From a virus, in the IMG/VR virus record IMGVR_UViG_3300011114_000175, positions 1 to 43,565 of that record: a DNA stretch of 43,565 bases; one strand, given 5' to 3'. Below the pieces are notes generated by a model. It was not told the origin of the DNA. It did not search any database and worked only from the letters and a program-made list of their open reading frames with translations. Of the stretch, positions 30,647 through 43,565 are shown one piece after another. The position numbers and the translations under genes were made by a program. Each line of letters opens with the position of its first letter. The first letter of the stretch is position 1.

Positions 30647-30675
30647 AAAAAACCCCCGAGGATTAATCGGGGGTT
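30646..30675 (-). terminator. Rho-independent terminator for leftward transcripts
   Basis: A perfect 9-bp stem (AACCCCCGA with TCGGGGGTT; 30651-30659 and 30667-30675) with a 7-base loop. On the minus strand it is followed by seven T residues, so it ends the leftward replication operon. On the plus strand no T-run follows, so late transcripts are less likely to stop here. The T-run overlaps the stop codon of the giant gene. Confidence 0.85.
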
Positions 30676-30730: not shown

Positions 30731-30925
30731 TCATGCCCGCCATACCCGCAAGCCTTTAACGCCATCCACTACAACTACTTTAGAAATAGTTTTGATTTTT
30801 AGGCGAGTACTTATTGCCGCTAACGTGCGACGGGCAGCTTTGTGGTCAATGCAGGGTACAAAAAACGAGTACCCTTTCCTAAACTTGGCCCAGTTAATCC
30901 GGTACGTCACCGTCTCGATTTTCAT
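30731..30925 (-). CDS. Small conserved phage protein (TYRINWAKFRKGYSFFVPC type)
   Basis: 64 residues from ATG 30925, which lies inside the 3' end of the primase-helicase gene. It begins MKIETVTYRINWAKFRKGYS and continues FFVPCIDHKAARRTL, then KIKTISKVVVVDGVKGLRV. I recognise this as a small phage protein found next to replication genes. The ORF extends further upstream (31006) but those residues are the shadow of the primase gene. Basic, alpha/beta, one Cys; possibly nucleic-acid binding. Last gene before the leftward terminator. The ribosome site is weak, suggesting coupling to the gene above. Confidence 0.65.
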   Translation of the reverse strand: MKIETVTYRINWAKFRKGYSFFVPCIDHKAARRTLAAISTRLKIKTISKVVVVDGVKGLRVWRA

Positions 30926-33743
30926 CTTGCTTAATGTAAGTGTCCATTTGCAGGAACTCTGAAGCTGATGCGTCAAACTTAAGCACCCGAACCGCAGGGG
31001 ATACAACCCTCATGCCCTTGGACATGCGCTTATTTGTACCCTCAATAAACACCTTGATCTTCTCTAAGTCTTTTAGTGTGCTGCGGTAGTTGATTTGCTG
31101 ACGTACACAAAAATCTTTAAAGTGCTTCGCGGAAACGTATAGGTCTTTCGTGTCTGGTTCGTAGCGTATGAGTAGCTCTCCCTTGGGTTCTAGTAGCGGC
31201 AGTGATACCAAGTTGCTGCGGGCATCCACCTCACCGTTGACCACAAGTGCGTTGGCAATATAGGTGTTCATAAACTCACCCAGCACCGTAACAGGGGACG
31301 ATTGCGGAGGCTTAACCTCGTAGCGCATCTCCTCCAACATAACTTTGAGCCACTCGTAGACAGACTTCATATCGTAGTCGTGCAGGCCAAGGGACTTGGA
31401 GATCAAGCCACCAGCAATATTGCAAGCAGCAACACCCGACCAAAACCTCTCCCGTTGAGTAAACTGAACTTCTCGGTCAAGCCTAGCTTGGACTTGGCGC
31501 ATAAGGCTAACGGCCTCTTCCAAATTATTGACAAGCCATTGGGCATAAATCTCCATTGCGTGCCCGTAGTTTTCCCGTAGTTGATGGTCGAACATTGCCT
31601 TGCCCTCTTGCACCTCAATAACATTGTTTGGGCTAATCTTGTATTCCAGCAAACGCATTGACTCACCATCGGGCGAACTTTTAGATACGCCGAGCTTTTC
31701 GTAAAAGCTGGCATTGGAAGAGCATAGGGTGATGCCTTGCCACTTCGTATTATTAATGCGTAGTTCATTGGTTGAGCCTTTCATCTTGTCCTTGCCCCTA
31801 CCCTGCGAGATGCTGTACGCAAGGTCTGAGAACTCCATGCCCGACAAGTTGGTGATCTCGTCGATAGTGTTGGCCAAATTGTTCATCACGCCGAGCCGGT
31901 GGATTTTTGCGTTGAACGTATCCTTGAACATGGACGTTAAGTCTTTGGGCATACCCGTCACGCTATTGCACATGAACAGGGCAGTGGACTTACCGGAGCC
32001 AGACTCAGGATGAATAAGGTTAATGATTGCCCCCTCCAAACCCGTGAACTTCAGCAGCGGGGAGCCAAAGGCTGTGAGTGCAGCAAACGCATGGGGCTCC
32101 AAACCCTTGCGGCTATACATATTGAACGCTTCTTTCCACTTCTCAAACGTACCCTTAACGTGAATCTTATCTACTACGTCCTTAGTTGTAGATGACGGGG
32201 GGCTATAAAACACACCGTCCTTAGTTATTTCTCTGTCGCCGACAATAAATTTACTGTCTCCTTCAACCCATCCAAATTGAGTTCTCATTGTTTCCGCCTT
32301 TCTGACGTATTGCAGGTTCTTAACAAAATACACAACGAACCGTGCTAAGTTTTCATATTGCTTGATGTGGGCTACCACACCTTGCTGCGCTAATTGCTTT
32401 CGTAGATCATCCTTGGTTGATATCGACATTGTGGATATGGTGAATTCCCTGATCCCATCGTGCGGTAAGTGCAATCTGAACAGGGCAACCTCGCCCATCT
32501 CAGGGTCACGCATCCGCTTGACTACGTACAGATCATGCTCGTACACCAATGCAGGTTCCGACTCTTCATCGTCGGCTTCGGGCCGTATATAAATGCCACC
32601 GTTCTTACCCCGGAAAAATGGAAAGGGGTACTCGGGTATGCGTGATATCTCCTTGCTCTCCGTATCCTCAATAACGTATTCATCACCGTCTACGTCGGCT
32701 TCTTCTATTTCCACGCCCAGCATGATTGGGGACTTAATTTTCCCGTGATGCTGACAGCCCTCGCAACCTTGTGGGTTGAGCTTGGCAAACGTGGTGCAGT
32801 GGTGTGGCCCACCTTTCTTCCTAATATCACTAACCTTCTTATCTACTTCTGACGGGTCATACCCTTCGTGCTTGTTGGACAGCTTGTGTGCTGCTGCGTC
32901 CCCATCTATGCAAAAAGCTGCAATGGATAACGCCGAGCGCCACAGTGGCTCATCAATACTCTCCTGATTCTCAAAACAATGAAGCAGTTGGTTGCACCCA
33001 TCCTCACCCTTCAGCATGATGGTTTTAAAACGCTTTACCTTGTTCCCCATCAACGCTTCCATCATTGGGCTGATGCTGCGCGGAATGAAGTCAGGTACCT
33101 CGTCTTTGGGCTCTGCCGCACCTAGGAGACTTTTGATCTCGTCGTACGTCATGCGCTGGGTCACGTCATTAAGGACGGTCACCGGCTGCGGCTGCTCATT
33201 CTTGTAATTGAATGTGCCGGGGATGCGCAGGACACGGGATGCCTCAAATACTGAGGAGTCCACAATTAACCCTTGCTCGACGCACAATTCACGGAGCCTG
33301 TCGGCTAACGGTTCCCACTCGCGGCGGGAGATCGTTTTGTCTAGTAGCCAGTACGCATGTACGCCGTATCCTGAGCTAACTAATAGTGGCCTTGGTAAGC
33401 CGACTGCGATGCAGAACTTCTTAAACTCACTGAGTCCAATCTGCTGAGTCAAGTAGCCTTTAATAACGCCCTTCTCATCCGGCACACCTTTAGTGGGGCC
33501 GCAGTCAATGTCCATCCACAATGCGCGGAAGTACGTGGCGTTCTCGTGAGTCCTGTTGTTTAACGGGCCAAACTTAGCGCATCCAAAATACGCATCAACT
33601 TTGCTCGCTACAAATTCCTCGGCTATCTCATCAACTTCTTCCTTAGTATCTACAAATCGCTGATCGGGGTACCGACCCATTCCAAACACACAGTACCGCC
33701 CTTCCGTAGGCAGCACGGCGTCCAATAGATCGAATGCGGACAT
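30894..33743 (-). CDS. Primase-helicase (AEP-like N-domain, DUF927-like ATPase C-domain)
   Basis: 949 residues. The N-terminal third has primase-polymerase (AEP) motifs: MDID with D78 and D80, SSGYGVHAYW with H129, and SRVLRIPGTFNYK near 169-181. A Cys/His cluster (HHCTTF.. CEGCQHHGK, about residues 317-340) may bind zinc. The C-terminal half is a helicase-type ATPase: Walker A HPESGSGKST (about 576-585), Walker B-like NTIDEI, then ISQGRGKDK and TLCSSNAS (sensor), as in DUF927-type phage helicases. It would prime and unwind for the family A polymerase at 38187. It is in an operon with the HTH gene; overlaps the 64-residue gene downstream. Ribosome site is weak (translation coupling). Confidence 0.8.
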   Translation of the reverse strand: MSAFDLLDAVLPTEGRYCVFGMGRYPDQRFVDTKEEVDEIAEEFVASKVDAYFGCAKFGPLNNRTHENATYFRALWMDIDCGPTKGVPDEKGVIKGYLTQQIGLSEFKKFCIAVGLPRPLLVSSGYGVHAYWLLDKTISRREWEPLADRLRELCVEQGLIVDSSVFEASRVLRIPGTFNYKNEQPQPVTVLNDVTQRMTYDEIKSLLGAAEPKDEVPDFIPRSISPMMEALMGNKVKRFKTIMLKGEDGCNQLLHCFENQESIDEPLWRSALSIAAFCIDGDAAAHKLSNKHEGYDPSEVDKKVSDIRKKGGPHHCTTFAKLNPQGCEGCQHHGKIKSPIMLGVEIEEADVDGDEYVIEDTESKEISRIPEYPFPFFRGKNGGIYIRPEADDEESEPALVYEHDLYVVKRMRDPEMGEVALFRLHLPHDGIREFTISTMSISTKDDLRKQLAQQGVVAHIKQYENLARFVVYFVKNLQYVRKAETMRTQFGWVEGDSKFIVGDREITKDGVFYSPPSSTTKDVVDKIHVKGTFEKWKEAFNMYSRKGLEPHAFAALTAFGSPLLKFTGLEGAIINLIHPESGSGKSTALFMCNSVTGMPKDLTSMFKDTFNAKIHRLGVMNNLANTIDEITNLSGMEFSDLAYSISQGRGKDKMKGSTNELRINNTKWQGITLCSSNASFYEKLGVSKSSPDGESMRLLEYKISPNNVIEVQEGKAMFDHQLRENYGHAMEIYAQWLVNNLEEAVSLMRQVQARLDREVQFTQRERFWSGVAACNIAGGLISKSLGLHDYDMKSVYEWLKVMLEEMRYEVKPPQSSPVTVLGEFMNTYIANALVVNGEVDARSNLVSLPLLEPKGELLIRYEPDTKDLYVSAKHFKDFCVRQQINYRSTLKDLEKIKVFIEGTNKRMSKGMRVVSPAVRVLKFDASASEFLQMDTYIKQDENRDGDVPD

Positions 33744-33746
33744 TGA

Positions 33747-33983
33747 TTATTTTTTCTTGAGTTCTTCGATGTATTTGGCTACTTGCGGAGCTAAGCGTGG
33801 GTGGGGGCGAGAAGCCCCTTGAAACCAGTTGTAGACCGTCATCCGACTTACGCCAAACGCTTGCGCCAACTGATTCACGCTTATCCCAGCAGGTATACAT
33901 ACACGACCCAAGGCTACGCCCAGAGACTTAGCATTAGCCGCTTTATTGGCTGACACTAAGCTCAGGCTATAACCGTAGCTCAT
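33747..33983 (-). CDS. Small HTH (XRE/Cro-like) transcription regulator
   Basis: 78 residues with a strong GAGGAG site. The helix-turn-helix is residues about 34-56: ISVNQLAQAFGVSRMTVYNW, i.e. the Cro/CI/XRE pattern, followed by a short basic helix and a C-terminal KYIEELKKK. It has no separate effector domain. It lies between the ssDNA-binding candidate and the primase, in the same operon as the promoter at 35346. It is the best candidate in the window to bind the shared inverted repeat of the two promoters (inference). Alternatively it could act on a host or late promoter outside the window. Confidence 0.8.
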   Translation of the reverse strand: MSYGYSLSLVSANKAANAKSLGVALGRVCIPAGISVNQLAQAFGVSRMTVYNWFQGASRPHPRLAPQVAKYIEELKKK

Positions 33984-33986
33984 GCG

Positions 33987-34877
33987 TTACTCCTCATCAC
34001 TCCAAGCCTTCACCACGGAGTCAAGGTCTTTCTTGACGGTAGGCTTAGGCTCGGATTTCTTTTCGCGCTTGGTGGGCTCATCAATAGGCGATTCCAACTT
34101 CGGCGCAGCGGCAACGGGTGCAGGTGCTTCCAACTTAGGTGCTCGGCCTGATGTGTCCGCTTGATACGGAGTCATGATGACCATCTTCTGCACCTCGGGA
34201 GTAGCAGCTACCTTGCTGGTAACCGCAAACTGAGCCTTGTTGATGAAGCGCGTCGGCGTGAACATAACCGACTGGTTGTCGTTGTCCTCGTTAAAGCTGA
34301 TCTGCGTAACCACGTAGTCCAAACTCTTGCCGTTGTTCGACAGGTACTTGGTGTAGTTCTCAAACGTATGGGTGTTGTCCCCTGCGCCATCACCGAACAG
34401 CGACTTGGATGCCAAGTTCATCTGATACACAGAACCTTCCAGTGAAGTACCAAAGTCCTCTTCCAACACAAGCGCAATACGGCGTGAGTAACGGCAGGCC
34501 TTAGAGTTGCCCATGCCCGAACCTTTGATGTTCTTATCGCAGCTATCGCAGCGGTCTGCTTGGGGGTTTGCGGAACCAGCATCGGGTGCACGGCCATCAT
34601 TGGAGAAGCAATCGGGCGCAGTCGGCTCGGCTTCGGGGCTCCATGTCTTCGTGTAGAAGATACGGCCAACGTGGGGGGATGCACTAACAATGATGGTGCT
34701 AAGGTCACCCTTAACTTTACCCATCTCTTCGCCACCAACTACCTTGCGAAAAATACCGTTCTTTGGAACGATGCGTTTAACCCCGGTCTTACCAGCGAGT
34801 TGTTTTGTAAGCTCACTGACACCTGCGGTTTGCAGGAAGTCGGGCAAGTCTTGGTTTAGTAAAGCGATATCACTCAT
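33987..34877 (-). CDS. Candidate single-stranded DNA-binding protein
   Basis: 296 residues. Four cysteines (C90, C110, C113, C128) in DRCDSCDKNIKGSG..KACRYSRR could bind zinc. Beta-strand rich flanks (STIIVSASPHVGRIFY; RRIALVLEEDFG; LDYVVTQISFN; SVMFTPTRFIN) could be an OB-like core. The C-terminus after a Pro/Ala linker is charged and ends in an acidic tail (VVKAWSDEE), as in T4 gp32 and T7 gp2.5, where the tail recruits replication partners. The size (296) is like gp32 (301). No alignment was possible; a recombination-annealing or zinc-dependent SSB is my reading. Preceded by AAAGGA. Confidence 0.5.
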   Translation of the reverse strand: MSDIALLNQDLPDFLQTAGVSELTKQLAGKTGVKRIVPKNGIFRKVVGGEEMGKVKGDLSTIIVSASPHVGRIFYTKTWSPEAEPTAPDCFSNDGRAPDAGSANPQADRCDSCDKNIKGSGMGNSKACRYSRRIALVLEEDFGTSLEGSVYQMNLASKSLFGDGAGDNTHTFENYTKYLSNNGKSLDYVVTQISFNEDNDNQSVMFTPTRFINKAQFAVTSKVAATPEVQKMVIMTPYQADTSGRAPKLEAPAPVAAAPKLESPIDEPTKREKKSEPKPTVKKDLDSVVKAWSDEE

Positions 34878-34878
34878 T

Positions 34879-35301
34879 TCATTTTTCCTTTGAACGTCTA
34901 ACTACCACGGAATAAGAACTCTCCACGTTGAGACCAGCGGGAAGAAGATCGGGATTCTCAATAAGAAAGTCCTTCATGTTGGTTTGATGAAGTCGTTTCT
35001 CTAACAGGCCAAATGCACCTTGTTCTTCGATGAACGTGTACATTGAATCCCAATCATTCGTCCAGTACCGTGACTTTACCGAACGGATGATCGTGCCATG
35101 TGGGGTGCGTATGCTATCCGCATTCATCTCTTTGCATACGTCGAGCATCTGTGTTTCCAAAACTTCCATCTGCTCTTTTAAATCGGCGTCGGCTTCCTCA
35201 AACTCACGTTTGTTTTCAGCGCGTTTATCTCGTATCTTGATGTAGATTGTGGTGAGCTTGCCCAAATCTATGGGGGCAGCTACCTCTTGAACTTCGTCCA
35301 T
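34879..35301 (-). CDS. Coiled-coil early protein
   Basis: 140 residues with GGAG upstream. Residues 15-60 are a charged coiled coil (IYIKIRDKRAENKREFEEA), followed by a small alpha/beta domain (SIRTPHGTIIRSVKSRYWTN, then GAFGLLEKRLHQTNMKDFL, PDLLPAGLNVESSYSVVVRR). I recall this protein from similar phages next to the SSB-like gene. The layout is reminiscent of Gam-type nuclease inhibitors, but that is only a resemblance. It is the first gene after the 35346 promoter and so probably made early. Confidence 0.55.
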   Translation of the reverse strand: MDEVQEVAAPIDLGKLTTIYIKIRDKRAENKREFEEADADLKEQMEVLETQMLDVCKEMNADSIRTPHGTIIRSVKSRYWTNDWDSMYTFIEEQGAFGLLEKRLHQTNMKDFLIENPDLLPAGLNVESSYSVVVRRSKEK

Positions 35302-35345
35302 CTAATTCTCCTGATTGGTTGTAATCGTGCGACGTGCACGAATTG

Positions 35346-35373
35346 ATTATAACACTGCTTTTTACAGTGTCAA
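35346..35373 (-). promoter_or_regulatory. Sigma70-type promoter P1 (leftward)
   Basis: On the minus strand: TTGACA (35373-35368), 16-base spacer, TATAAT (35351-35346). Both hexamers equal the consensus. It overlaps the stop codon of the SNF2-like gene and lies 45 bases before the 34879-35301 gene, so it would transcribe the coiled-coil, ssDNA-binding, HTH, primase and 64-residue genes. Confidence 0.85.
35352..35370. promoter_or_regulatory. Perfect inverted repeat in promoter P1 (candidate operator)
   Basis: ACACTG, 7-base spacer, CAGTGT: a perfect 6-bp inverted repeat (19 bp overall) filling the spacer between -35 and -10. A dimeric HTH protein binding here would block RNA polymerase. The same arrangement is found at 40928-40946. 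Confidence 0.7.
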
Positions 35374-36755
35374 GCGTCTTCTGAAATTATTTGTTTGTAA
35401 AGGTCAATGACCTTTTGGTGGTTGCCAATGTTGCCCCTGAGCATGGAGTACATGCGCGTCTCCACAGGGCTGCCATTGATGTGCACGACTGTCATGTTGT
35501 TGACCTGACCGGGGCGGTCAATCCGTGCGTTGGCTTGCAGGTAGGTTTCTACGCTGGTGCATGGAGCGTACCAAATAATTGTGTTGGCCGCAGTTAGTGT
35601 TAACCCGTGGGATGCCGCTTTAGGCTGAATAATCAGCACCTTGGGGTCGGGGTTGTCTTGGAACCGTTTAACTATGTCGGCGCGGTTGTTAACCGAGACA
35701 GCACCATTTATTACGTCACACGTAATGTTGTTCTTGGCTAAGTGCTTCTGAAGTAGCTCAATGGTGTGCGTGAACGGGACAAAGACCAGCACCTTGTGGC
35801 TGGACTCTTCAATGACTTCCTGCACCACTTTCAGTCGGTTGCTCACGTCAAACTCAATGATCTCACCGTTGTCCGAGTACACCGCACCGCCAGCAATTTG
35901 CAACAGCTTATTAATTTGTACCGCAGCATTAACGGCTGTGATCTCTTCGCCAGATGCCTCAATCAACATCTGCTTCTTAAGTATCCGGTAGTACTTTAAT
36001 TGCTGTGGCGTCAGTGGCGCGTCTCTGTCTACAAAAGTAACAGGAGGCAGATCAAGGCAGTCGGCTTTCTCAAACCGGATGGCTGGCTGCAACGCCTTGT
36101 GCACGATGTTTTGCGCAGTTGGCTTTGGTATCCAGCGGTACAGACCCATCTTGAGCATCACTGAATCGCGGAACATACTGAAGAATTGCGGGACTCCAGT
36201 GGGGTTCACTAGCTTTGCCAGCCCATACGCATCTGCGGGGGACTGTGCTGCCGGTGTGCCTGTGAGCATCCACAAGCCCTTGATAACTTTTGTTAGGTCA
36301 CGCAGGTCTTTCCATCGGTCAGTCTGCGCATTCTTGTAGGCCGACGCCTCGTCCACCACGATCAGGTCAAACCCGCCCGCAATAATTTCTTTCTTGACGA
36401 TGCCAACGCCATCAAAATTAATGATGACAAAATCTGCGCCCATGTTGATAAGCTGTTTGCGTTTCTGCGCAGCACCGTATGCCACCGTAACCGTACGATG
36501 GATGGCAAACTTAAACAAGTCGTTCTGCCATGCCGACTTCATAATGGACAGGGGGCAGATCACCAGCACTCGGTTCACCAGCCCACGCTGCATCAAATAG
36601 TCTACGGCCCAAATCACTGATGCCGTTTTACCTGTACCCTGCTCGTTAAAGCAAAACGCTTTACGGTTTGTGGTTAGGAACTCTGATGTTAATTTCTGAT
36701 GGTCGAATGGGGTAAACCCCGGAGGCCGGGGCCACTCATACTCTGATAGGCTCAT
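35370..36755 (-). CDS. SNF2-family superfamily 2 helicase/translocase
   Basis: 461 residues, full set of motifs: Walker A NEQGTGKT (37-44), DEAS box at 135-138 within IVVDEASAYKN, LTGTP (164-168), and C-terminal QANARIDRPGQ as motif VI. The N-terminus FTPFDHQ is a Q-like motif. The RPGQ ending is typical of SNF2-like translocases. It would move along duplex DNA, perhaps for recombination, fork remodelling or removal of bound proteins. Overlaps the HNH-like gene above by ATGA, so co-translated. Its stop is inside promoter P1. Confidence 0.85.
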   Translation of the reverse strand: MSLSEYEWPRPPGFTPFDHQKLTSEFLTTNRKAFCFNEQGTGKTASVIWAVDYLMQRGLVNRVLVICPLSIMKSAWQNDLFKFAIHRTVTVAYGAAQKRKQLINMGADFVIINFDGVGIVKKEIIAGGFDLIVVDEASAYKNAQTDRWKDLRDLTKVIKGLWMLTGTPAAQSPADAYGLAKLVNPTGVPQFFSMFRDSVMLKMGLYRWIPKPTAQNIVHKALQPAIRFEKADCLDLPPVTFVDRDAPLTPQQLKYYRILKKQMLIEASGEEITAVNAAVQINKLLQIAGGAVYSDNGEIIEFDVSNRLKVVQEVIEESSHKVLVFVPFTHTIELLQKHLAKNNITCDVINGAVSVNNRADIVKRFQDNPDPKVLIIQPKAASHGLTLTAANTIIWYAPCTSVETYLQANARIDRPGQVNNMTVVHINGSPVETRMYSMLRGNIGNHQKVIDLYKQIISEDA

Positions 36756-37066
36756 TTTTTCTTACGCTCTTTGGTACTGACCTCTGATACTACCTTGTGG
36801 TTTGACCCACGCTTGAACGAACGGTTGGCGCTTGGGCTTTGCAGCTTTGTACCATCCTTGTTAGTTCCACCTTTAGATAAAGCCTTGATGTGTGCAACAT
36901 CTTTTCCTTCGCGCACGTCAGCTTCTCCGTTGTTGTTTGTGTCGGGGTTCTTTTTATCAATTGCTTCTCTCGCTCGTTGTCGCTCAAGGCGGGACTTGCC
37001 CTCACCTCGGGCAAGCTGTTGGTCGTATTCTTTCTTATACGGACGGGGTTTATTTACGTAGGGCAT
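36752..37066 (-). CDS. HNH-like small basic protein
   Basis: 104 residues, very basic. The N-terminus is KPRPYKKEYDQQLARGEG with RLERQRARRE-type helix. The core (GKDVAHIKALSKGGTN followed by LQSPSANRSFKRGSNHK) has the order of an HNH nuclease ββα motif: AH, then GGTN, then N. There are no CxxC zinc clusters, unlike most HNH proteins. I recall this protein in many aquatic phages beside an SNF2-type helicase, as here. A nuclease is likely but not proven. AAAAGGA upstream of the ATG. Confidence 0.6.
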   Translation of the reverse strand: MPYVNKPRPYKKEYDQQLARGEGKSRLERQRAREAIDKKNPDTNNNGEADVREGKDVAHIKALSKGGTNKDGTKLQSPSANRSFKRGSNHKVVSEVSTKERKKK

Positions 37067-37071
37067 GACTA

Positions 37072-37362
37072 TTATCCTTTTTCAATCATGTGGGTACTAA
37101 GTTCTTTGTGGTCAAAACCAAAATCCTCGGGCTTTGATTCCCAAAGCGGCTTGCGACCTTCCTTCTCAATCAGGTTCAACATCTGCCCGACATTGATGCT
37201 GATCTCCATTAGCATTTTAGTTTTCTGCTCGGTAAAAATTGCTTGCATCTGCTTAGATACTTCTTCGCGCACAATATTTACGGACACCTCATGCACTCGG
37301 CGCTTAAGTTCACCTTCAAGGATGAGGGCGGTATCGGTTTCTTCGTTAGTCATTGCACTCAT
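37072..37362 (-). CDS. Small helical early protein
   Basis: 96 residues from ATG 37362, selected because CAGGAG lies 6 bases upstream; the open frame continues upstream without this site and into the nuclease gene. The product is helical and acidic/basic mixed (ALILEGELKRRVHEVSVNIVREEVSK, then KTKMLMEISINVGQML), with a C-terminal KPEDFGFDHKELS. No known motif. It sits between the HNH-like and Cas4-like genes, so a recombination accessory is possible. Confidence 0.6.
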   Translation of the reverse strand: MSAMTNEETDTALILEGELKRRVHEVSVNIVREEVSKQMQAIFTEQKTKMLMEISINVGQMLNLIEKEGRKPLWESKPEDFGFDHKELSTHMIEKG

Positions 37363-37364
37363 TT

Positions 37365-38027
37365 TTAGCTCCTGTTGTATTCGCAATCTTTCACTGCACA
37401 AAACTTGCACAGTGGGCCTTGGACAGGGTTCCACACCCCATTTTCCTTCGCTGCGTCGATTCGTGCAACATCCTCGGTGGGCTTTTGCATATACTTGGGC
37501 AGCATCTCAACGTAGTGGTCGGCCCGAACAAACTCTTTACTCACCGTAAAAAGTAGAGCGGACTTCACCCTCTGGAGAGTCGGGAACTTGGCGAACAGGC
37601 CACAAGCTACAAGATCGAGTTGCTTCACGTCCGCATATCTCGCACTCTTGCTTGTCTTGTAGTCCACTGAGTAGGCCATCGTTTGGGTCGGATTGATAAC
37701 CACCAAATCGGCTATTCCATGCCACCACACATTCGGCGCATCGAAATCGCAGCTTTCCAAGCTCCTTGTCAACCCAAGCCTTACTTCGCATAACTTATCT
37801 CCGGGGATAGCCTTCAGTACATCTAAGGTAGCTTGCATATAAGCAAACTGCGGTGGGATTGGCACGTCATCACGGATGTATTCTTCTGCTACCGTATGCG
37901 CTGTCTTGCCATAAAGCGTTGCCTGTGTATCGGGCTCAACAATATCTCGGACTACCTTGGTGTGGTAGTACTTGCGGGGGCATTGCTGAAACGTCTTCAG
38001 ACTGCTAAATGACCAGACAGTATTCAT
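37365..38027 (-). CDS. Cas4/RecB-like PD-(D/E)XK exonuclease with Fe-S cysteines
   Basis: 220 residues. Motifs in order: SLKTFQQCPRKYY with C16; GKTAHTVAEEYI (helix I with H); WHGIADLVVI then YSVDYKTSK, i.e. the D..DxK catalytic core; and C-terminal GPLCKFCAVKDCEYNR with C207, C210, C215. One N-terminal plus three C-terminal cysteines is the 4Fe-4S arrangement of Cas4 and AddB. It would degrade DNA ends, giving 3' overhangs for recombination, or process host DNA. Overlaps the small gene upstream by ATGA. AAGGA before the start. Confidence 0.85.
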   Translation of the reverse strand: MNTVWSFSSLKTFQQCPRKYYHTKVVRDIVEPDTQATLYGKTAHTVAEEYIRDDVPIPPQFAYMQATLDVLKAIPGDKLCEVRLGLTRSLESCDFDAPNVWWHGIADLVVINPTQTMAYSVDYKTSKSARYADVKQLDLVACGLFAKFPTLQRVKSALLFTVSKEFVRADHYVEMLPKYMQKPTEDVARIDAAKENGVWNPVQGPLCKFCAVKDCEYNRS

Positions 38028-38212
38028 TTTGCTCGTTCCTTCATGTCGTTGATAGCGTGGAGCATCAGCTTGGTCTGCACTATGGCTTCCAGCGTTTGCT
38101 CAGCAGCCTCGTCATACATATTGGCTAGCATAAACAGGTGCGCATCCTTTAGCGCCTTCTCCGCCATCATCGCGGGAAACGCATAATCAACAATCGCCGT
38201 AACTTTTTCCAT
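38024..38212 (-). CDS. Small helical protein between polymerase and nuclease
   Basis: 62 residues from ATG 38212, which has GAGG about 8 bases upstream; a GTG at 38224 is an alternative start. Helical: MEKVTAIVDYAFPAMMAEKA, then AHLFMLANMYDEAAEQTLEA, then VQTKLMLHAINDMKERAK. It overlaps the end of the polymerase and the start of the nuclease gene. No known domain. It may be an accessory of one of them, but there is only the position to say so. Confidence 0.6.
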   Translation of the reverse strand: MEKVTAIVDYAFPAMMAEKALKDAHLFMLANMYDEAAEQTLEAIVQTKLMLHAINDMKERAK

Positions 38213-40004
38213 ATCCAGCCTCACAATTTAAAGGTAAATCCAACGCCCATTTGGGGCGTAATCTCATGCACAACTCTACGTACTCCTTGGCCGTTTCAAC
38301 TTCGGCTTCGGGAACAACGATAGCAATTGCATCATGCACCGTCATGACCACTCGGTATTTCTTAGCGATCATAAGCATCTGCTCACCGATCACAATCCGC
38401 GCAAGGGCTTGGCACATGTTCTCAATTACCTTGCCGCCGTAGATTCGGTTCGGTATTATGGCCTTGCCCTTCTTTGTATCGTAAACGATCTCGGCTTTGC
38501 CATCCTGCCCCTCATGCACTCTTAGGTTGGGGTAGCGTAGGTACAAGCCATTGGGTAGCCGTATACCGCCTGTGCCTTGTACCTCTAGTGCGCCATCCCG
38601 TCCAAATGTTGTCTGCTGGTTGCTTAAGATAGCTTTGAGGGCTGAGGCGGCAGACTTCCACAACTCTGTAATCCTTGGGTAAGTTCTGCGGTAGGTATCA
38701 ATGACGTGCTGGGCTGCGTCCAACTCAAACTCGACCCCAAAGTTTTTAAGCTGCGCTTTAAATTTGGCAGCACCCATACCGTAACCACACCCAAGAATCG
38801 TAGTCTTACCCACAAATCGCTCATCCTTGGTAATGTCGCTCTCTGCTTTGTTGTAGATAGCTGAAGCCATGATCTTGTATACGTCATCGCCCCGATCAAA
38901 CGCAGCTACCAAGTCATCCTGCCCAGCCAACCAAGCCAACGTACGTGCTTCAATCTGCGAGGAGTCTGAGTCAATCATTACGTACCCATTGGGCGCAACG
39001 ATGCAGGACTTAAGAATGGACTTGCGCGGCAGGTTCTGAAGGTTCAGCTTATCGTCGCCACCCCAGCGTCCAGTATGCGCAGCGTAATACCGTAGGGGTA
39101 CAGGCAGTGCACCGCGGTAAGCAATACCGATAAACCTCTCTGTCCGCGTCTCTTCGATCGTTGACTTGGTTCCCAACCTAGCAGCCACTAACGCCTGTAC
39201 TGCGGGGTCACTATGCTCTAGCAACGCCTTAAACTCTTCGTCCGTCTTAGAGAATGCGTAAGTTTGTTTACCGTTGGCGGGGCTAACTTTCATCGGGGGC
39301 TCTACGCCCATCGCTCTGAGCAAGTCGGCGAACTTGGGGTTGCTCATCAAGTCGTCTTTGTTGTACGTACTAAGTATGCGCTTTTTGTTATCCTGCACAT
39401 CAAGCAAATAGGTTTTCAGCTTCCCAACGTCCAGCCGCAGTACAGGCTCCGTAAACATCTTGACCGTCAGATCAATGAGTCGCAACTCAGTCGGCGGGAA
39501 GTCCGTAGCCATCGCTTGAAAAAGGGCGTATGTGATAGCCACATCGTTCTTGCAGTACTCGCCATACCTTTGCAGTTGCTCGGGGCTGAAGTCCTTGCGG
39601 CGTAGGCCCAACGCATTTTCAACTTCGGTTCCCTTTTCGCCGATACCATAGTGGTTTGCTAGGACTTTAAGGCTGCCCCCTACTTCAGTACCGTGTAAGG
39701 CTCGGCCCATCGACAGAGTATCAAGCCAACCCTTGGGGCTGAGTCCGTATACCCAAGACAAAATTGCACCGTCAAACGGAGCGTTGTGCGCAAGGGCGAG
39801 GGAATTCCCCCAATCAAACTGAGCAAGGAACTGGTGCATGGCAGCAGCATCGCCGCTAAACCAAACTGGCTCTCCGTCGTTGATCTGCACCGACACGCCG
39901 ATCGTTTCAAACTGCGAGCTACGAATGTATTCCTCAGTGGTAACTTTTGTTAGGCTGAACTCACGCGAATAAAAGGTCTCAAAGTCGATCGTGAGGATAT
40001 TCAC
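38187..40004 (-). CDS. polA: Family A DNA polymerase with 3'-5' exonuclease
   Basis: 605 residues from GTG 40004 (overlaps the previous stop). Exonuclease: IDFETF (D7, E9), AHNAPFD (D78), YCKND (Y150, D154). Polymerase: motif A IDSDSSQIEARTLAW (D347, E352), motif B ERFVGKTTILGCGYGMG (R396, K400, L404, Y408), motif C TVHDAIAIV (D558). L404 aligns with Phe762 of E. coli Pol I, and A559 replaces the usual Glu of HDE. The metal-binding Asp residues (347 and 558) are both present, so it should be active. It replicates the phage genome with the primase-helicase at 30894. Its N-terminal 5'-3' nuclease is absent, as in phage enzymes of this size. Confidence 0.95.
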   Translation of the reverse strand: MNILTIDFETFYSREFSLTKVTTEEYIRSSQFETIGVSVQINDGEPVWFSGDAAAMHQFLAQFDWGNSLALAHNAPFDGAILSWVYGLSPKGWLDTLSMGRALHGTEVGGSLKVLANHYGIGEKGTEVENALGLRRKDFSPEQLQRYGEYCKNDVAITYALFQAMATDFPPTELRLIDLTVKMFTEPVLRLDVGKLKTYLLDVQDNKKRILSTYNKDDLMSNPKFADLLRAMGVEPPMKVSPANGKQTYAFSKTDEEFKALLEHSDPAVQALVAARLGTKSTIEETRTERFIGIAYRGALPVPLRYYAAHTGRWGGDDKLNLQNLPRKSILKSCIVAPNGYVMIDSDSSQIEARTLAWLAGQDDLVAAFDRGDDVYKIMASAIYNKAESDITKDERFVGKTTILGCGYGMGAAKFKAQLKNFGVEFELDAAQHVIDTYRRTYPRITELWKSAASALKAILSNQQTTFGRDGALEVQGTGGIRLPNGLYLRYPNLRVHEGQDGKAEIVYDTKKGKAIIPNRIYGGKVIENMCQALARIVIGEQMLMIAKKYRVVMTVHDAIAIVVPEAEVETAKEYVELCMRLRPKWALDLPLNCEAGYGKSYGDC

Positions 40005-40366
40005 TTGAAAAACCCCGACAGTTGGGTTGACACCTTGTTGTTCTCGCTGCTGATATTGACGGAATCCACAAGGGCGGCGTGTGGGTTAATGCCAGCAATA
40101 GCAGTGGCATATCGGCCTGACGCTTTTATCTTTACGGTGTTCTCCATCTCTTCGGTAAGCAACTCCTTGAACACCATAGAGTCGAACTCCTTGCGCCGCA
40201 CTGCCTTCAACGCCTCGTGCAACGCGCCCTTCTCGGGCTCGGTCAGTACCTCACGGAAGTTAGGCTTAAACATAAAATTCCACTTCGGTGCATCCCCAAA
40301 AAACTCTTCGGGGTTTGATTCCATCCGTGCTACTAACGTACGCACTCCATCACTAAATTGGCTCAT
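40001..40366 (-). CDS. Hypothetical protein upstream of polymerase
   Basis: 121 residues with GGAGGAA upstream. It begins MSQFSDGVRTLVARMESNP and has KWNFMFKPNFREVLTEPEKG, then LHEALKAVRRKEFDSMVFKEL, then a beta tail (NISSENNKVSTQLSGFF). Mostly helical, soluble. I recall similar proteins upstream of polymerase genes in aquatic phages, but no function. Overlaps both neighbours (GTGA at the polymerase; ATGA at the next). Confidence 0.6.
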   Translation of the reverse strand: MSQFSDGVRTLVARMESNPEEFFGDAPKWNFMFKPNFREVLTEPEKGALHEALKAVRRKEFDSMVFKELLTEEMENTVKIKASGRYATAIAGINPHAALVDSVNISSENNKVSTQLSGFFK

Positions 40367-40602
40367 TTCGGTTCCTCCAGTAGTTTCATCATTCCAATTG
40401 CGGTGTGCTTGTCCAGCCCTTTGGCTAGGGTCGTTGAATGCCTGCGCTGCAACTCAATCGAATACTCATTCCTGTATATTGAGTACTTGCCGTACCTAAA
40501 CTTCATCACATACCACATACCAGCCTTTTCGTACTCAATACCAAACAGTTTGTTAAGCCCCGGTAACAATTCTTTGAGTAGGTCAGCACGGCTAATTGCC
40601 AT
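40363..40602 (-). CDS. Small protein with SRADLLKELLPGLNKLFG motif
   Basis: 79 residues from ATG 40602, with AAGGTGAG upstream; the in-frame GTG at 40611 is less likely. The N-terminus (ISRADLLKELLPGLNKLFG) resembles the opening of some phage major capsid proteins I remember, but the rest (KAGMWYVMKFRYGKYSIYR, then IELQRRHSTTLAKGL) does not and the gene is in the early region. Probably a small alpha/beta regulator or capsid-related scavenger; unknown. Confidence 0.55.
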   Translation of the reverse strand: MAISRADLLKELLPGLNKLFGIEYEKAGMWYVMKFRYGKYSIYRNEYSIELQRRHSTTLAKGLDKHTAIGMMKLLEEPK

Positions 40603-40894
40603 TGCACTCACCTTCTATCCAACCCTTCAAGTCATCTATGTTTGTTTCGTAAATGACCGCAGTTAAACCACCGGCTTCTCGGATAGCTTTAAGGTTTTTC
40701 TCTTGCAGCGCGGTAGTTGTACCCTTCCCTGCCTTAGCTTCAATAGCCAAAAACTTACCGTTCACGCAGCAAAGGAAATCGGGGACGCCACTGTTGCCGT
40801 AGCCAGTACCAATCGGCATGGCGTAGTAAACGTTGTGGGCTTTGAGGATGGCCTTAATCTTTGCTTTGACCTTGGCCTCGGGTGTTTGTGCCAT
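40592..40894 (-). CDS. VRR-NUC domain nuclease
   Basis: 100 residues, the whole VRR-NUC domain: GNSGVPDFLCCVNGKFLAIE with D39, then IEAKAGKG with E52 and K54, then Q64 within TALQEKNLKAIREAGG. This is the PD-(D/E)XK-like catalytic set. Single-domain VRR-NUC proteins of phages cut branched or structured DNA (Holliday junction resolvase-like in some cases). It is the first gene behind promoter P2. GGAG upstream of the ATG at 40894. Confidence 0.85.
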   Translation of the reverse strand: MAQTPEAKVKAKIKAILKAHNVYYAMPIGTGYGNSGVPDFLCCVNGKFLAIEAKAGKGTTTALQEKNLKAIREAGGLTAVIYETNIDDLKGWIEGECNGN

Positions 40895-40921
40895 CTCATA
40901 CTCCAGTTGTTTTCAGCCTCC

Positions 40922-40949
40922 AGTATAACACAGTGTTTTACTCTGTCAA
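40922..40949 (-). promoter_or_regulatory. Sigma70-type promoter P2 (leftward)
   Basis: Minus strand: TTGACA (40949-40944), 16-base spacer, TATACT (40927-40922; one mismatch to TATAAT). It lies 28 bases before the VRR-NUC start and just after a terminator, so it starts the replication operon (VRR-NUC to SNF2-like helicase). It shares 22 of 28 positions with promoter P1. Confidence 0.8.
40928..40946. promoter_or_regulatory. Inverted repeat in promoter P2 (candidate operator)
   Basis: ACACAG, 7-base spacer, CTCTGT: five of six positions pair as an inverted repeat, same length, spacing and position as the perfect one in P1 (35352-35370). Likely the second binding site for the same regulator. Confidence 0.6.
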
Positions 40950-40961
40950 GGGTACAGGCGT

Positions 40962-40984
40962 AAAAAAGCCACCCGAAGGTGGCT
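40962..40984 (-). terminator. Rho-independent terminator with UUCG loop
   Basis: Minus strand: AGCCACC, loop TTCG, GGTGGCT, then TTTTT (40984 to 40962). A 7-bp stem closed by C-G around a UUCG tetraloop is very stable. It ends the small-gene operon (43565-41012) just before promoter P2. Confidence 0.85.
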
Positions 40985-40993
40985 AGTACTTAC

Positions 40994-41009
40994 CCTAACA
41001 TTTGTTAGG
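40994..41009. promoter_or_regulatory. 16-bp palindrome CCTAACA-tt-TGTTAGG
   Basis: Perfect 7-bp inverted repeat with a two-base centre, just past the stop codon of the HTH-DUF3310 gene and before the terminator. Could be an operator or part of an RNA structure. A similar 13-base palindrome (CTAACA-a-TGTTAG) is at about 41980-41992 inside another gene. No function can be assigned. Confidence 0.35.
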
Positions 41010-41011
41010 TA

Positions 41012-41452
41012 TCACTTGAGCATACTGATCTCTCGCGTCAGATACCACTGTGCCTTGCGCAAGTCCTCCAGCTTGTTGCCTTTGTGGTCGGCGCGGGTCA
41101 GATACTTGACTACGTTGCCAAGGTTGTACCCCAGCTTCTTAGCCTCAATGAAGTCGATGGTCTCGATACCACCTACCTTGTAATGGGCAGGGTGATTGAC
41201 GTTATCGGGGGCGTTCACCGTATCGTTACTTGTGATGATTGCCAGCGTCTTCCACTTGTTCGCTGCTACCTTAGCTGACTTGCGTGGTACACGTGGGATG
41301 CCCTTCTTAGCTTTCTTGTCGTACGAAAGGGTTGCGTATACGTTCCTCAACGTAACACCCTCCAACGCCGCCGCAATATCATTTGGCTTAGCCTTGGGAT
41401 GCTGCTTAACGTACGCACGGATTTTTGCTGCTGCTGTCTTAGTTTGTTTCAT
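41012..41452 (-). CDS. HTH-like N-domain fused to DUF3310 (T7 gp1.7-like) domain
   Basis: 146 residues from ATG 41452, with CTGGAG upstream; the longer frame to 41479 runs into the neighbour. N-terminal half: AAAKIRAYVKQHPKAKPNDI then LEGVTLRNVYATLSYDK, an HTH-like segment with a basic tail. C-terminal half matches DUF3310: NVNHPAHYKVGGIETIDFIE, then LGNVVKYLTRADHKGNKLEDL, then RKAQWYLTREI. T7 gp1.7, a nucleotide kinase, has the same domain by my recollection. A role in nucleotide supply or in takeover is plausible. Last gene before the terminator. Confidence 0.7.
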   Translation of the reverse strand: MKQTKTAAAKIRAYVKQHPKAKPNDIAAALEGVTLRNVYATLSYDKKAKKGIPRVPRKSAKVAANKWKTLAIITSNDTVNAPDNVNHPAHYKVGGIETIDFIEAKKLGYNLGNVVKYLTRADHKGNKLEDLRKAQWYLTREISMLK

Positions 41453-41654
41453 TTTTAACTCCAGTTTGGTTAGTAACATACTCAGTAAGAATTTCTCTCA
41501 TCTTGGCTTGCTTTGTATACGCAAAGTTAGTGTTGAAGTAATCCATCACCTCCTTTGTTAGACGCAGGCTCGTATTGAAAAGCGCGGGTTTCTTACCCAA
41601 TCCCCGCCCTTTTCGTTTTTTCTCCGGTTTTAAAAACTCAATCCCTGTTGTCAT
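41439..41654 (-). CDS. Small RHH-like DNA-binding protein candidate
   Basis: 71 residues. A basic arm (EKKRKGRGLGKKPALF) leads to TSLRLTKEVMDYFNTNFAYT, then KQAKMREILTEYVTNQTG, the strand-helix-helix order of ribbon-helix-helix regulators (like the BrnA/CopG pattern slRLt.evmdyF). It may be a DNA-binding dimer. Overlaps the next gene's start. AAAGGAA upstream. An alternative is a capsid-independent structural protein; sequence only suggests RHH. Confidence 0.55.
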   Translation of the reverse strand: MTTGIEFLKPEKKRKGRGLGKKPALFNTSLRLTKEVMDYFNTNFAYTKQAKMREILTEYVTNQTGVKNETN

Positions 41655-41802
41655 TGGTTTGTTCCTTTCGTGCTTTCATAAATTGGTCGGCTATCGTAAA
41701 CGCCTGCTCATGTGGAAAGTTGTCGTTCTTATTTCTAATCAACAACGCTGCCATTACAAACATAGCTGCAAGGTCTCGTAAATTCTGTTCATGCTCGGTC
41801 AT
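41638..41802 (-). CDS. Small helical protein, EHEQNLRDLAAMFVMAALLIR
   Basis: 54 residues from ATG 41802, with TTTGGAG upstream; the frame extends upstream (41844) without a site. One hydrophobic helix (LAAMFVMAALLIR) followed by charged residues (HEQAFTIADQFMKARKEQ). Likely a small cytoplasmic helical protein; hydrophobic stretch is short for a membrane span but possible. Overlaps neighbours on both sides. No function known. Confidence 0.55.
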   Translation of the reverse strand: MTEHEQNLRDLAAMFVMAALLIRNKNDNFPHEQAFTIADQFMKARKEQTNDNRD

Positions 41803-42049
41803 CGTAGGCTCCAAAAGGCATAGGGCAATTCTCAGGCGGTACAACTACGCACCATACTGCGCTCCACTTGCCTCGGCCTTTACCCACCTTGGGAATCCAT
41901 CGGTCAATATAAGCGTCGGGCATCTTCTCTAAGCTACGCCCTGCATTGGTGTAGTTCATATTGAGGTAGTTGGATACATCTAACAATGTTAGGCCATCGT
42001 GGTACTGTTGCAATAGCATCCTAATTCGATGCTGCGGGGGTGTGTTCAT
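41789..42049 (-). CDS. Winged-helix-like small protein
   Basis: 86 residues, AAGGAG upstream. Helical start (RIRMLLQQYHDGLTLLDVSNYL) then MNYTNAGRSLEKM, then IDRWIPKVGKGRGKWSAVWCVV, which looks like a HTH plus beta wing (ladvsnyLnmnytnagrsLekM). Probably a DNA-binding regulator. No catalytic motif. Overlaps its neighbours by 4-14 bases. Confidence 0.55.
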   Translation of the reverse strand: MNTPPQHRIRMLLQQYHDGLTLLDVSNYLNMNYTNAGRSLEKMPDAYIDRWIPKVGKGRGKWSAVWCVVVPPENCPMPFGAYDDRA

Positions 42050-42291
42050 GTGTTTTTCTCCTTTAGTTTGGTTTCAATGGCTTTATAAAAAACACCCCAG
42101 CCATCGTTCTGCCATTGCTCGTACGCTTGTTGTTGCTCTTCATCCGTCAACCCAACCCAAGGGCGCTCAGGCCACTGCGCTACCACATCAGCACGCACCC
42201 GCAGGGCAAAGTTATATATCTCAGGTGTCATCTGCTTGATGCCAGCCTCCGCGCCAATCCTGTCCAGCTTTGGTATTAGTCGTTCACCCAT
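42046..42291 (-). CDS. Small early protein with RPWVGLTDEE motif
   Basis: 81 residues from ATG 42291 with AAGGAG upstream; the reading frame extends to 42360 but that part is the neighbour. Contains ALRVRADVVAQWPERPWVGL then TDEEQQQAYEQWQNDGWGVF and a C-terminal ETKLKEKNT. The motif WVxLTDEE is common in phage small early proteins, and is also in 42776-43042. Its C-terminal KEKN is encoded by the ribosome site of the next gene. Function unknown. Confidence 0.55.
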   Translation of the reverse strand: MGERLIPKLDRIGAEAGIKQMTPEIYNFALRVRADVVAQWPERPWVGLTDEEQQQAYEQWQNDGWGVFYKAIETKLKEKNT

Positions 42292-42514
42292 TGTTTTTCT
42301 CCTTGAGAATTGACTCTGCACTGGTTGCAGCTTGCTTCGCTGCCGAATCCCAAAAATCAATCATGGCGTGGTGTTTGATACGCCATGCAAACACGCGCAG
42401 TTCAGGTGTTAACTCAACCCGCGCTTCCTTTGCAATTGCTTCTAGCTTTAGCTTCTCTTCTTCCATAGTTTTGTATACGTCGTAGCGTTTGTATAAATGT
42501 TCTTTGCTATCCAT
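42284..42514 (-). CDS. Small early protein (related in layout to 42046)
   Basis: 76 residues from ATG 42514 with AAGGAG upstream. Helical: LYKRYDVYKTMEEEKLKLEA, then TPELRVFAWRIKHHAMIDFW, then AAKQAATSAESILKEKNNG. The segment TPELRVFAWRI resembles TPEIYNFALRV of the previous gene, so the two could be diverged copies. C-terminal LKEKNNG is the footprint of the next ribosome site. Function unknown. Confidence 0.55.
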   Translation of the reverse strand: MDSKEHLYKRYDVYKTMEEEKLKLEAIAKEARVELTPELRVFAWRIKHHAMIDFWDSAAKQAATSAESILKEKNNG

Positions 42515-42779
42515 TATTCTTCTCCTTGTCTGCTTTCTCCTTGTCTTTGCGCTCCAGTGCAATCATGTAATCCAGTGAATCTTGAATCGACTTTTGGTTT
42601 CTTACTGACAGATTTTTCAAATCTTCAAACGTGATATGTGGTTTTTTCTGGGTGTCGCATAACTCTGCCATGTACGCAAAGTAATCCCTACGCGCTACCG
42701 TTTCTATATACCATATTAGCGTTTGTAGCTCGTTTGTATTTGGCACACCAAGTAGTTCAATCATTTCAGTGTTAGTCAT
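42507..42779 (-). CDS. Small early protein
   Basis: 90 residues, AAGGA before ATG 42779. Starts MTNTEMIELLGVPNTNELQT, contains WYIETVARRDYFAYMAELCD and HITFEDLKNLSVRNQKSIQD, and ends DKEKADKEKNNG. Helical throughout. The KEKNNG ending coincides with the ribosome site and start of the following gene. No domain recognised. Confidence 0.55.
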   Translation of the reverse strand: MTNTEMIELLGVPNTNELQTLIWYIETVARRDYFAYMAELCDTQKKPHITFEDLKNLSVRNQKSIQDSLDYMIALERKDKEKADKEKNNG

Positions 42780-43042
42780 ACGTTCTTATCCTTAAATTTA
42801 GTCAGCAGGTCACGGGCAAAACCAATAGGCGTGGGTCTTTTGAAGGGTTCCCTTGACCAGTATGTTTTAGTAATCTCCTCGTCCGTCAGGTCTACCCAAG
42901 GGCGCTGTGCTGCTTTCTTTCCGTCATAGAAACCGCTTTGGTATGCAATCGTCAACGCATCGTCGTGGTCTTGGTATACCTGCGTATCGTCATCGTCCAG
43001 CTTGTCCCGCGCTGCTGCGCGTTTGCTTTCGTAGCCTGTCAT
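42776..43042 (-). CDS. Small early protein with RPWVDLTDEEI motif
   Basis: 88 residues. Acidic N-terminus (DKLDDDDTQVYQDHDDALTI) and then YQSGFYDGKKAAQRPWVDL followed by TDEEITKTYWSREP; ends LLTKFKDKNV. The QRPWVDLTDEE motif is shared with 42046-42291. GAGG upstream of ATG 43042. Overlaps the next start (ATGA). Function unknown, probably host-takeover. Confidence 0.55.
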   Translation of the reverse strand: MTGYESKRAAARDKLDDDDTQVYQDHDDALTIAYQSGFYDGKKAAQRPWVDLTDEEITKTYWSREPFKRPTPIGFARDLLTKFKDKNV

Positions 43043-43251
43043 GCTCTACCTCTTGTGTAAACGATCTGCCTAAAATTTTCAATCCAAAAAGCAGCGGGTT
43101 TATTTTGCAGCAGGGGGTTGTCCTCTACTGGGCGCAGTTCCTCTATCGACTTCATAATGGCTTCACGCTCATGCGCTGCTACCAATTCGGCAAAGCGTTC
43201 CAGCCAATAGTCGCGTTGACCCGCTTGCTTTGCTAGTTCAATGTAGTTCAT
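43039..43251 (-). CDS. Small early protein with FAELVAAHERE motif
   Basis: 70 residues, GAGGTGA upstream. Landmarks YWLERFAELVAAHEREAIMK, then NKPAAFWIENFRQIVYTRGRA. Related to the next gene, 43248-43442, in the FAxLVAAHERE segment. Helical. Function unknown. Confidence 0.55.
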   Translation of the reverse strand: MNYIELAKQAGQRDYWLERFAELVAAHEREAIMKSIEELRPVEDNPLLQNKPAAFWIENFRQIVYTRGRA

Positions 43252-43442
43252 GCTTCACCTCTTGCTCTGATTTTTTCAACAATGAAATCGGCTATTTCAT
43301 CTGGGGGTACAAACAAATCCTCAACTACTTTGGCGCACTCCTCACGCTCATGCGCGGCTACCAATGCGGCAAAGTGTTCTATGTCACCATGCAAGTTCAG
43401 CCCATTGGTTTCAATCAGTTTAATAATTTCATCTTGTGTCAT
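43248..43442 (-). CDS. Small early protein with FAALVAAHERE motif (paralogue)
   Basis: 64 residues. Starts MTQDEIIKLIETNGLNLHGD, then IEHFAALVAAHEREECAKVV, and ends DEIADFIVEKIRARGEA. Shares FAALVAAHERE with the previous gene, so the pair looks like a local duplication. Overlaps both neighbours by ATGA-type junctions. No enzyme motif. Confidence 0.55.
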   Translation of the reverse strand: MTQDEIIKLIETNGLNLHGDIEHFAALVAAHEREECAKVVEDLFVPPDEIADFIVEKIRARGEA

Positions 43443-43565
43443 ACCTTGCCCCTTGCTCTGTCCATAACTCTTTCCATCGCGTCTGAGTAGCTCATGCCTA
43501 ACGCTTTGTTTATAAGCGCCAATGACTCATCAATGATTTCATCATGCACTCCCGCTTCTACTTCC
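43439..43565 (-). CDS. Partial small early protein at right edge (5' missing)
   Basis: The frame is open on the minus strand from 43564 to a TGA at 43441-43439, giving 41 residues of the C-terminus: EAGVHDEIIDESLALINKAL, then GMSYSDAMERVMDRARGKV. The start lies beyond the window. The stop overlaps the ATG of the next gene (GTATGA), and the ribosome site AGGGGCAAGG is in its last codons. It is one more member of the small-gene operon, so the operon begins further right. It was too short to appear as a long frame. Confidence 0.6.
   Translation of the reverse strand, partial: EVEAGVHDEIIDESLALINKALGMSYSDAMERVMDRARGKV

Follow-up and report, generated by a model that had tools for sequence, protein, structure and literature searches.

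A candidate Cro-like autorepressor and a predicted operator built on the -35 box of two replication promoters in uncultivated phages

Described phage repressors and the present locus

Small phage repressors of the XRE type with operators lying over promoters are already known. Lambda and 434 Cro and P22 c2 are small XRE-fold proteins that act on near-palindromic sites overlapping sigma70 promoters and repress their own synthesis; in lambda, tandem operators lie between divergent promoters. The replication region described here is similar in having a small protein of predicted XRE fold, the 78-residue helix-turn-helix (HTH) protein P0001, whose model resembles these repressors, and a near-palindromic site overlapping a sigma70-type promoter, with autorepression as the predicted outcome. 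However, it has two single sites rather than tandem operators, and these lie 5.6 kb apart, on one strand, each built from the -35 hexamer of its promoter. A lambda-like switch is unsupported here. Both promoters are on one strand, and neither an antagonistic repressor nor an integrase was found among the matches listed for 31 proteins of the early/replication region and 38 plus-strand proteins, in a scan that took in neither the 2152-aa ORF nor the smaller ORFs, nor the final 19 kb of a 63-kb contig of the same or a near-identical virus.

Two reports on cluster A mycobacteriophages describe the HTH repressor as a two-domain monomer that binds an asymmetric 13-bp site at many places, and the repressors of related phages as preferring their own distinct sites (PMC9283540, PMC6550527). 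The protein considered here is, in contrast, a single small domain, predicted to act as a dimer on a near-palindrome at two sites. Stoperators are asymmetric 13-bp sites in large number across the genome, whereas exactly two exact sites were found in 15 of 20 viral contigs. TgrL of the virulent Caulobacter phage phiCbK is an XRE factor that forms homomers and mostly represses, and it was studied on host targets (PMC10688885). The predicted targets here differ in being the phage's own two replication promoters. The literature search on this system returned comparator systems only. What appears to be new, judging from the sequences, is a proposed operator in which the -35 hexamer serves as one half, together with a natural switch of specificity at one residue.

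The window, that is, the whole stretch of DNA analysed, is a virus record of 43,565 bases from a freshwater phage. A stretch of 18.6 kb in it is identical to part of the 63-kb contig IMGVR_UViG_3300011116_000165, and the record is thus a fragment of the same virus or of a near-identical one. Megablast of positions 33000-43565 against named phages gave no match, and the HTH protein had none among named phages at an E value of 0.01.

The promoter pair, its operons and its recurrence in relatives

The first promoter, P1 (35346-35373, minus strand), reads TTGACA-16-TATAAT with an extended -10 and matches the consensus at 12 of 12 positions; the second, P2 (40922-40949, minus strand), reads TTGACA-16-TATACT and matches at 11 of 12. 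An earlier note on this DNA had reported both, and they are present exactly where it placed them, at 35373-35346 and 40949-40922; our recount of their agreement also gave its figure of 22 of 28 positions, with 11 of 16 identical within the spacer. Between 24000 and 43565, eight promoter-like sites were found at a threshold of 9 of 12, compared with 18.3 expected by chance, and P1 and P2 are the two best of them. When the window was resampled 60 times under a Markov model, promoters scoring at least 11/12 arose 0.58 times on average, and two or more arose in 6 of the 60 resamples, so that two strong promoters alone are unremarkable. The window by itself does not exclude chance, and a comparison with relatives was therefore needed.

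The -35 box of P1 overlaps the end, at 35370, of the gene for an SNF2-type helicase (35370-36755, minus strand), the last gene of the P2 operon. Downstream of P1 are four abutting genes, all on the minus strand, which encode a 140-aa protein (34879-35301; PHROG 13900, annotated as minor head protein), a 296-aa protein (33987-34877), P0001 (33747-33983) and a 949-aa primase/helicase-like protein (DUF927; 30894-33743). A terminator-like site at 30651-30675 (minus strand) would end this series. Based on this layout, one operon is predicted, with the HTH gene third, in keeping with the earlier proposal that the HTH gene is transcribed from the first promoter. P2 would serve the polymerase/helicase operon, also on the minus strand, which comprises genes for a 100-aa endonuclease-like protein (PHROG 93; 40592-40894) in first place, a family A DNA polymerase (38187-40004) and a PD-(D/E)XK exonuclease (37365-38027), in addition to the helicase. 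Just upstream of P2 lies an intrinsic-terminator-like site, AGCCACCTTCGGGTGGCT-TTTTT (40967-40984, minus strand). A 71-aa protein that looks ribbon-helix-helix-like by eye is encoded upstream of P2, at 41439-41654 on the minus strand.

Relatives were collected by searches with the 296-aa and the 100-aa proteins, which confirmed 419 and 560 loci; the 80 best of each were taken. Across these roughly 160 viral loci, a few of them on a shared contig, the promoter pair recurs with 16-bp spacers in both promoters. One of the two is found where the helicase gene ends, and its partner in most cases directly follows a terminator. Because of this recurrence, the pair exceeds chance. When spacers of 13 to 21 bp were scanned, 16 bp was dominant, with 63 of 101 deduplicated clusters; deduplicated and unique counts, here and below, remove identical or near-identical stretches only, and many loci overlap in their source contig.

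Three further searches led to 296 HTH loci, partly redundant, of which 262 include 2.3 kb of upstream sequence. In every one of these 262, the P1 interval holds a promoter scoring 9/12 or better, and 261 of them have one of at least 10/12 with a 16-bp spacer at the P1 position, as against 41 of 1186 control windows of 1 kb. A P2 candidate was found in 62 of the 73 loci with at least 10 kb upstream and was not found in the other 11. The P2-type sites, defined by an A at column 7 of the operator described below, are associated with terminators: in 24 of 27 unique sites, the 100 bases upstream include a terminator-like stem of 6 bp or more, compared with 2.9% of 3000 random positions. Such a stem also precedes 14 of 77 P1-type sites, which have T at column 7, and the 13 of these that are listed have, by reading, P2-like flanks.

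The motif TTGACNNNGTMAA-N9-TANNNT is present in exactly two exact copies, both on one strand, in 15 of 20 viral contigs, in a single copy in G009, and in none in G004, G011, G013 and G015. The contigs that lack an exact copy encode a variant HTH protein, with Ala or Thr at residue 48 in G004, G011 and G015 and a distinct class, described below as VTRA, in G013. With up to one mismatch allowed, 19 of the 20 contigs have a match; these include three of the four without an exact copy, where one match, in G004, looks spurious, and additional one-mismatch matches occur in G005, G006, G007 and G010. The reversed control pattern had 3 matches over all 20 contigs. The compact two-promoter regulon that the earlier note had envisaged is thus supported by these counts, together with the covariation of HTH residue 48 at both promoters.

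A conserved dyad on the -35 box and its covariation with the HTH protein

Among 330 dyads scored over 63 deduplicated sites, which were selected for TTGACN, a 16-bp spacer and TAnnnT with a consensus match of 10/12 or better, TTGAC-N3-GTCAA ranks first, with at least four of its five pairs in 48 sites. The TTGAC left half, being the -35 box, was used in selecting these sites, and the right half of the dyad played no part in it. The conserved element is thus a 13-bp dyad, TTGAC-N3-GTMAA, built on the -35 box, and columns 8-12 read GT[ACT][ACT][AG] in all 101 unique main-class P1 sites. The proposed operators of the window, both on the minus strand, are O1 (TTGAC-ACT-GTAAA, 35361-35373) and O2 (TTGAC-AGA-GTAAA, 40937-40949), each of which is imperfect, with four of the five pairs of TTGAC-N3-GTCAA. 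Equivalent half-site bases are 10 bp apart, or one helical turn, a geometry compatible with a predicted dimer on a palindromic operator. Because the -35 box holds the left half constant, any covariation involving both halves would be hidden, and the 13-bp site could be a one-sided motif. Column 7 is T in all 101 unique main-class P1 sites and often A in P2 sites, some of which have T, as if the P1 and P2 sites were tuned differently. The P1 spacers also hold an A-run, and 65 of the 101 sites have TG at columns 19-20; a spacer A-run and a TG before the -10 box are known to aid promoters.

Blind scans of five viruses also revealed that a second class of promoters precedes the replication genes; most of these have a 17-bp spacer with TGTGG before TATAAT, and they have no GTMAA arm. 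In the same virus as the window they lie at 8299 and 6251 of L169 (minus strand), and similar sites occur in G003-G006; these are probably early promoters. As they lack the arm, it is unlikely to be a general promoter feature, and we ruled against that explanation of it. The parts of the named distant relatives KPP25, RHph_TM3_14A, Rollin and Xp15 that were searched had no clear HTH homologue and no such site, the best HTH match being a weak one in RHph (E 0.0078, best domain 0.051). In Rollin, a promoter without GTMAA is found at the end of a gene annotated as hypothetical in a helicase-like position, and the comparison with the promoters of named distant relatives rests on this one example.

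The operator is proposed for the main class of loci and not for a second class, marked by VTRA[ST]VYNW in the HTH protein (43 loci, e.g., L158, L137 and L286), which has a different P1 spacer. In this class, P1 reads TTGACA-CNNAAATTTGACAGTG-TATAAT or close to it (24 unique sites), and ACAGTG precedes TATAAT in all 24. Most of these sites have a second TTGACA-like half-site 13 bp downstream, in direct repeat.

P0001 matches the Pfam family HTH_3 at 26.8 bits (cutoff 23, E 5.2e-6); HTH_23 and HTH_7 are also above cutoff, so that its subfamily assignment is not unique. Its predicted structure, from a 54-sequence alignment, has five helices and a mean pLDDT of 88.2, and the predicted recognition helix spans residues 47-55, with Met48 inside. 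Foldseek matches of the model include CylR2, ImmR, P22 c2 and 434 Cro. No match reached an E value of 0.001 or less, and those to CylR2, P22 c2 and 434 Cro have TM scores (query) of 0.52-0.61 and probabilities of 0.66-0.99. The XRE-type assignment given earlier thus agrees with the HTH_3 match and, as far as a model can tell, with a resemblance to CylR2, P22 c2 and 434 Cro. P0001 is the only regulator match among the 31 proteins of the early/replication region. The 30 further proteins of that region matched no other regulator family, and the 38 plus-strand proteins had no regulator among the nine Pfam families or the 25 of 63 PHROG families listed. In bacterial genomes, the HTH family has 10 relatives, and the only one near full length is in an 8-kb MAG contig; these matches therefore identified neither a host nor a prophage.

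That the HTH protein may read the operator at both promoters is argued chiefly from covariation, a signal read from alignments. In a set of 126 unique HTH and P1 pairs, from which the 43 loci of the VTRA class and P1 sites with spacers other than 16 bp were left out, Met48 and operator column 11 form the top pair of 3240 APC-corrected residue-base pairs, with a z of 6.7 compared with 4.8 for the next. At P1, column 11 is A in all 77 Met48 rows and C or T in 38 of 49 rows with Ala, Thr or Gln48, staying A in 11 of these 49. The P2 sites, which were located separately from P1 and lie 6-10 kb away from the HTH gene, show the same split, with A in 28 of 29 sites for Met48 and C or T in 14 of 15 for Ala/Thr48. 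The exception in the P2 split is L229, a 9-of-12 site that looks spurious.

The control tree, built from the adjacent gene's 296-aa product, has eight changes of residue 48 (seven without two long-branch rows) and nine of column 11. Well-supported branches provide three independent pairs, of which 2.3 on average change the same way and none the opposite way; this number is too small for the sign test to reach significance (median p 0.5). A Pagel-type comparison of dependent and independent models for residue 48 and column 11, with 124 rows after the two long-branch rows were left out, gave a likelihood ratio of 28.3 (4 df, p about 1e-5). The highest ratio among ten other residue-column pairs was 14.8, and one of these ten fits gave -2.3, so that the optimisation is approximate. 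Three of the ten, residues 8, 19 and 24 with column 11, had nominal p values of 0.005-0.02, as expected from shared descent. In normalised mutual information with column 11 (125 rows, one left out), residue 48 has 0.451, whereas the second-ranking HTH column has 0.303 and the 296-aa control protein, over 208 columns, reaches at most 0.298; without correction, HTH residue 28 is above residue 48 (0.695 vs 0.648).

Proposed control of the replication genes and competing explanations

We think it likely that P0001 is a Cro-like autorepressor of the replication genes that binds O1 and O2 and shuts P1 and P2; binding, dimerisation, repression and timing are what we infer from the computed promoter pair, dyad, operon layout, predicted fold and covariation. 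P1 and P2 would be sigma70-type promoters of the phage replication module, each with a 13-bp operator made of the -35 hexamer and a mirror half in the spacer. The P1 transcript would give rise to the 78-residue Cro-like protein, a dimer of which would bind both operators, cover the -35 box and shut off P1 and P2. The predicted outcome is that the polymerase, helicase, exonuclease and primase genes are transcribed in a pulse that limits itself. The terminator-like site before P2 may insulate the P2 operon from upstream early transcripts, and the upstream promoters, mostly with a 17-bp spacer and no operator, would escape control by the HTH protein.

Dimers bound over a -35 box usually block sigma70. 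The dyad covers this box and a dimer there would be expected to do the same, which makes autorepression with coordinate shut-off the likeliest function. It is unlikely that the HTH protein acts at the same sites as an activator or timing switch instead of a repressor, given that the dyad covers the -35 box of promoters that are near consensus.

The conserved bases might not be an operator at all, with GTMAA and the extended -10 box forming a promoter-strength signature for the host sigma70 RNA polymerase. The A-run and the TG in the spacer fit such a signature; however, the upstream promoters of the same viruses do without GTMAA, and the GTMAA half changes along with HTH residue 48, and we regard this explanation as quite improbable.

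It is also very improbable that another protein reads the operator, be it the 71-aa ribbon-helix-helix-like protein or a host regulator. Of 180 loci searched, 88 contain relatives of the gene for the 71-aa protein, which in the window is upstream of P2, but the strongest covariation, at both promoters, belongs to the recognition helix of the HTH protein. Over 53 unique loci with both genes, the normalised mutual information of residue 48 is 0.467, whereas the 71-aa protein, over 57 columns, reaches at most 0.274, and a host factor is not expected to track a residue of a phage protein. A Pfam search with the 71-aa protein gave no supporting match. As it covaries less than HTH residue 48, it was dropped as a better-supported regulator.

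The earlier note had placed the operator at another inverted repeat, ACACTG-N7-CAGTGT, inside the two spacers. The repeat is there as described, perfect at P1 (35352-35370) and, as ACACAG-N7-CTCTGT, with five of six pairs at P2 (40928-40946), at the same offset; the conserved dyad is centred 6 bp upstream of the centre thus proposed. The P1 copy is the sole match without mismatch in the window, where up to three mismatches give 24 matches compared with 20.0 expected, so that the weaker copy at P2 is within chance. The right arm, CAGTGT, coincides partly with the TG of the extended -10 box. In relatives, the promoters are conserved and the repeat is not, the outcome that the note had said would speak against it. 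All six pairs are present in one and five in another of the 63 deduplicated sites, which puts the repeat at about rank 63 among the 330 dyads, and among the 101 unique P1 sites six pairs are present in one and five in two. L085 is the closest relative in which P2 differs, with 97.9% identity over 30.8-37.1 kb and 89% within the polymerase gene; its second promoter has kept TTGACAGAGTAAAA and lost the right arm, and in L001, L004 and L040, relatives at 89-90%, one pair is broken at P1. That an HTH dimer binds this unconserved repeat is scarcely credible, and we dropped it as the operator.

Autorepression by P0001 through the -35-based operator would give a small conserved protein of a large uncultivated phage group a proposed function, target site and specificity-determining residue. 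Repressor-operator pairs would then be matchable from environmental sequence alone, and the replication switch of these phages is thereby open to direct test. More tentatively, these elements may be joined in one reading, in which the operator is half-locked, its -35 half being frozen and specificity evolving via the free half alone, a single recognition-helix residue switches both distant promoters together, and P1 of many relatives, though not of the window, is also under RNA control. If this joint reading is true, control of P1 in many relatives would act at the DNA and the RNA level alike.

A structured leader RNA in relatives

In 45 distinct P1 leaders of relatives (e.g., L162:14112-14229, plus strand), the start of the transcript would fold as a structured RNA, with an outer helix, a hairpin with the loop GUUAGCG and a second small hairpin. 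GGGUUAGCGCC is invariant in the first hairpin and CACUGCUUNAUGUG in the small one. Thirteen of the 26 pairs have changed on both sides, 97.8% of the cells are paired, and none of 500 shuffles reaches any of the five measures. All four pairs of hairpin 1 are present in 51 of 68 rows, compared with 9.6% when arms are swapped between rows; the elements were preselected for the outer helix, which biases the test of that helix, so that the hairpin-1 figures alone count. At the gathering score, Rfam gave no match over the leader RNA in 22 loci (7 + 15), its two matches lying elsewhere, and at a relaxed threshold one instance had weak matches far below gathering. A literature search on this RNA found no paper.

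The motif was sought in the window and in other loci of the same virus and was absent there. The window's own P1 leader has a different element, the inverted repeat TCGTGC-N5-GCACGA (35325-35341), which as RNA would form a small hairpin with a stability not clearly above that of shuffles (z -1.0).

A pattern scan located at least 120 stretches of the leader RNA type in viral contigs. The next ORF is a homologue of the 140-aa gene in at least 18 of 120 elements, a lower bound because the start finder returned no ORF for many others. Copies in L391-L509 and other freshwater phage contigs have a different outer helix and are often found just after a -10-like box. Among 183 elements, which are partly redundant and include the P1 leaders, 126 show a TAnnnT box no more than 16 bases away from the outer helix, compared with 11% at random positions.
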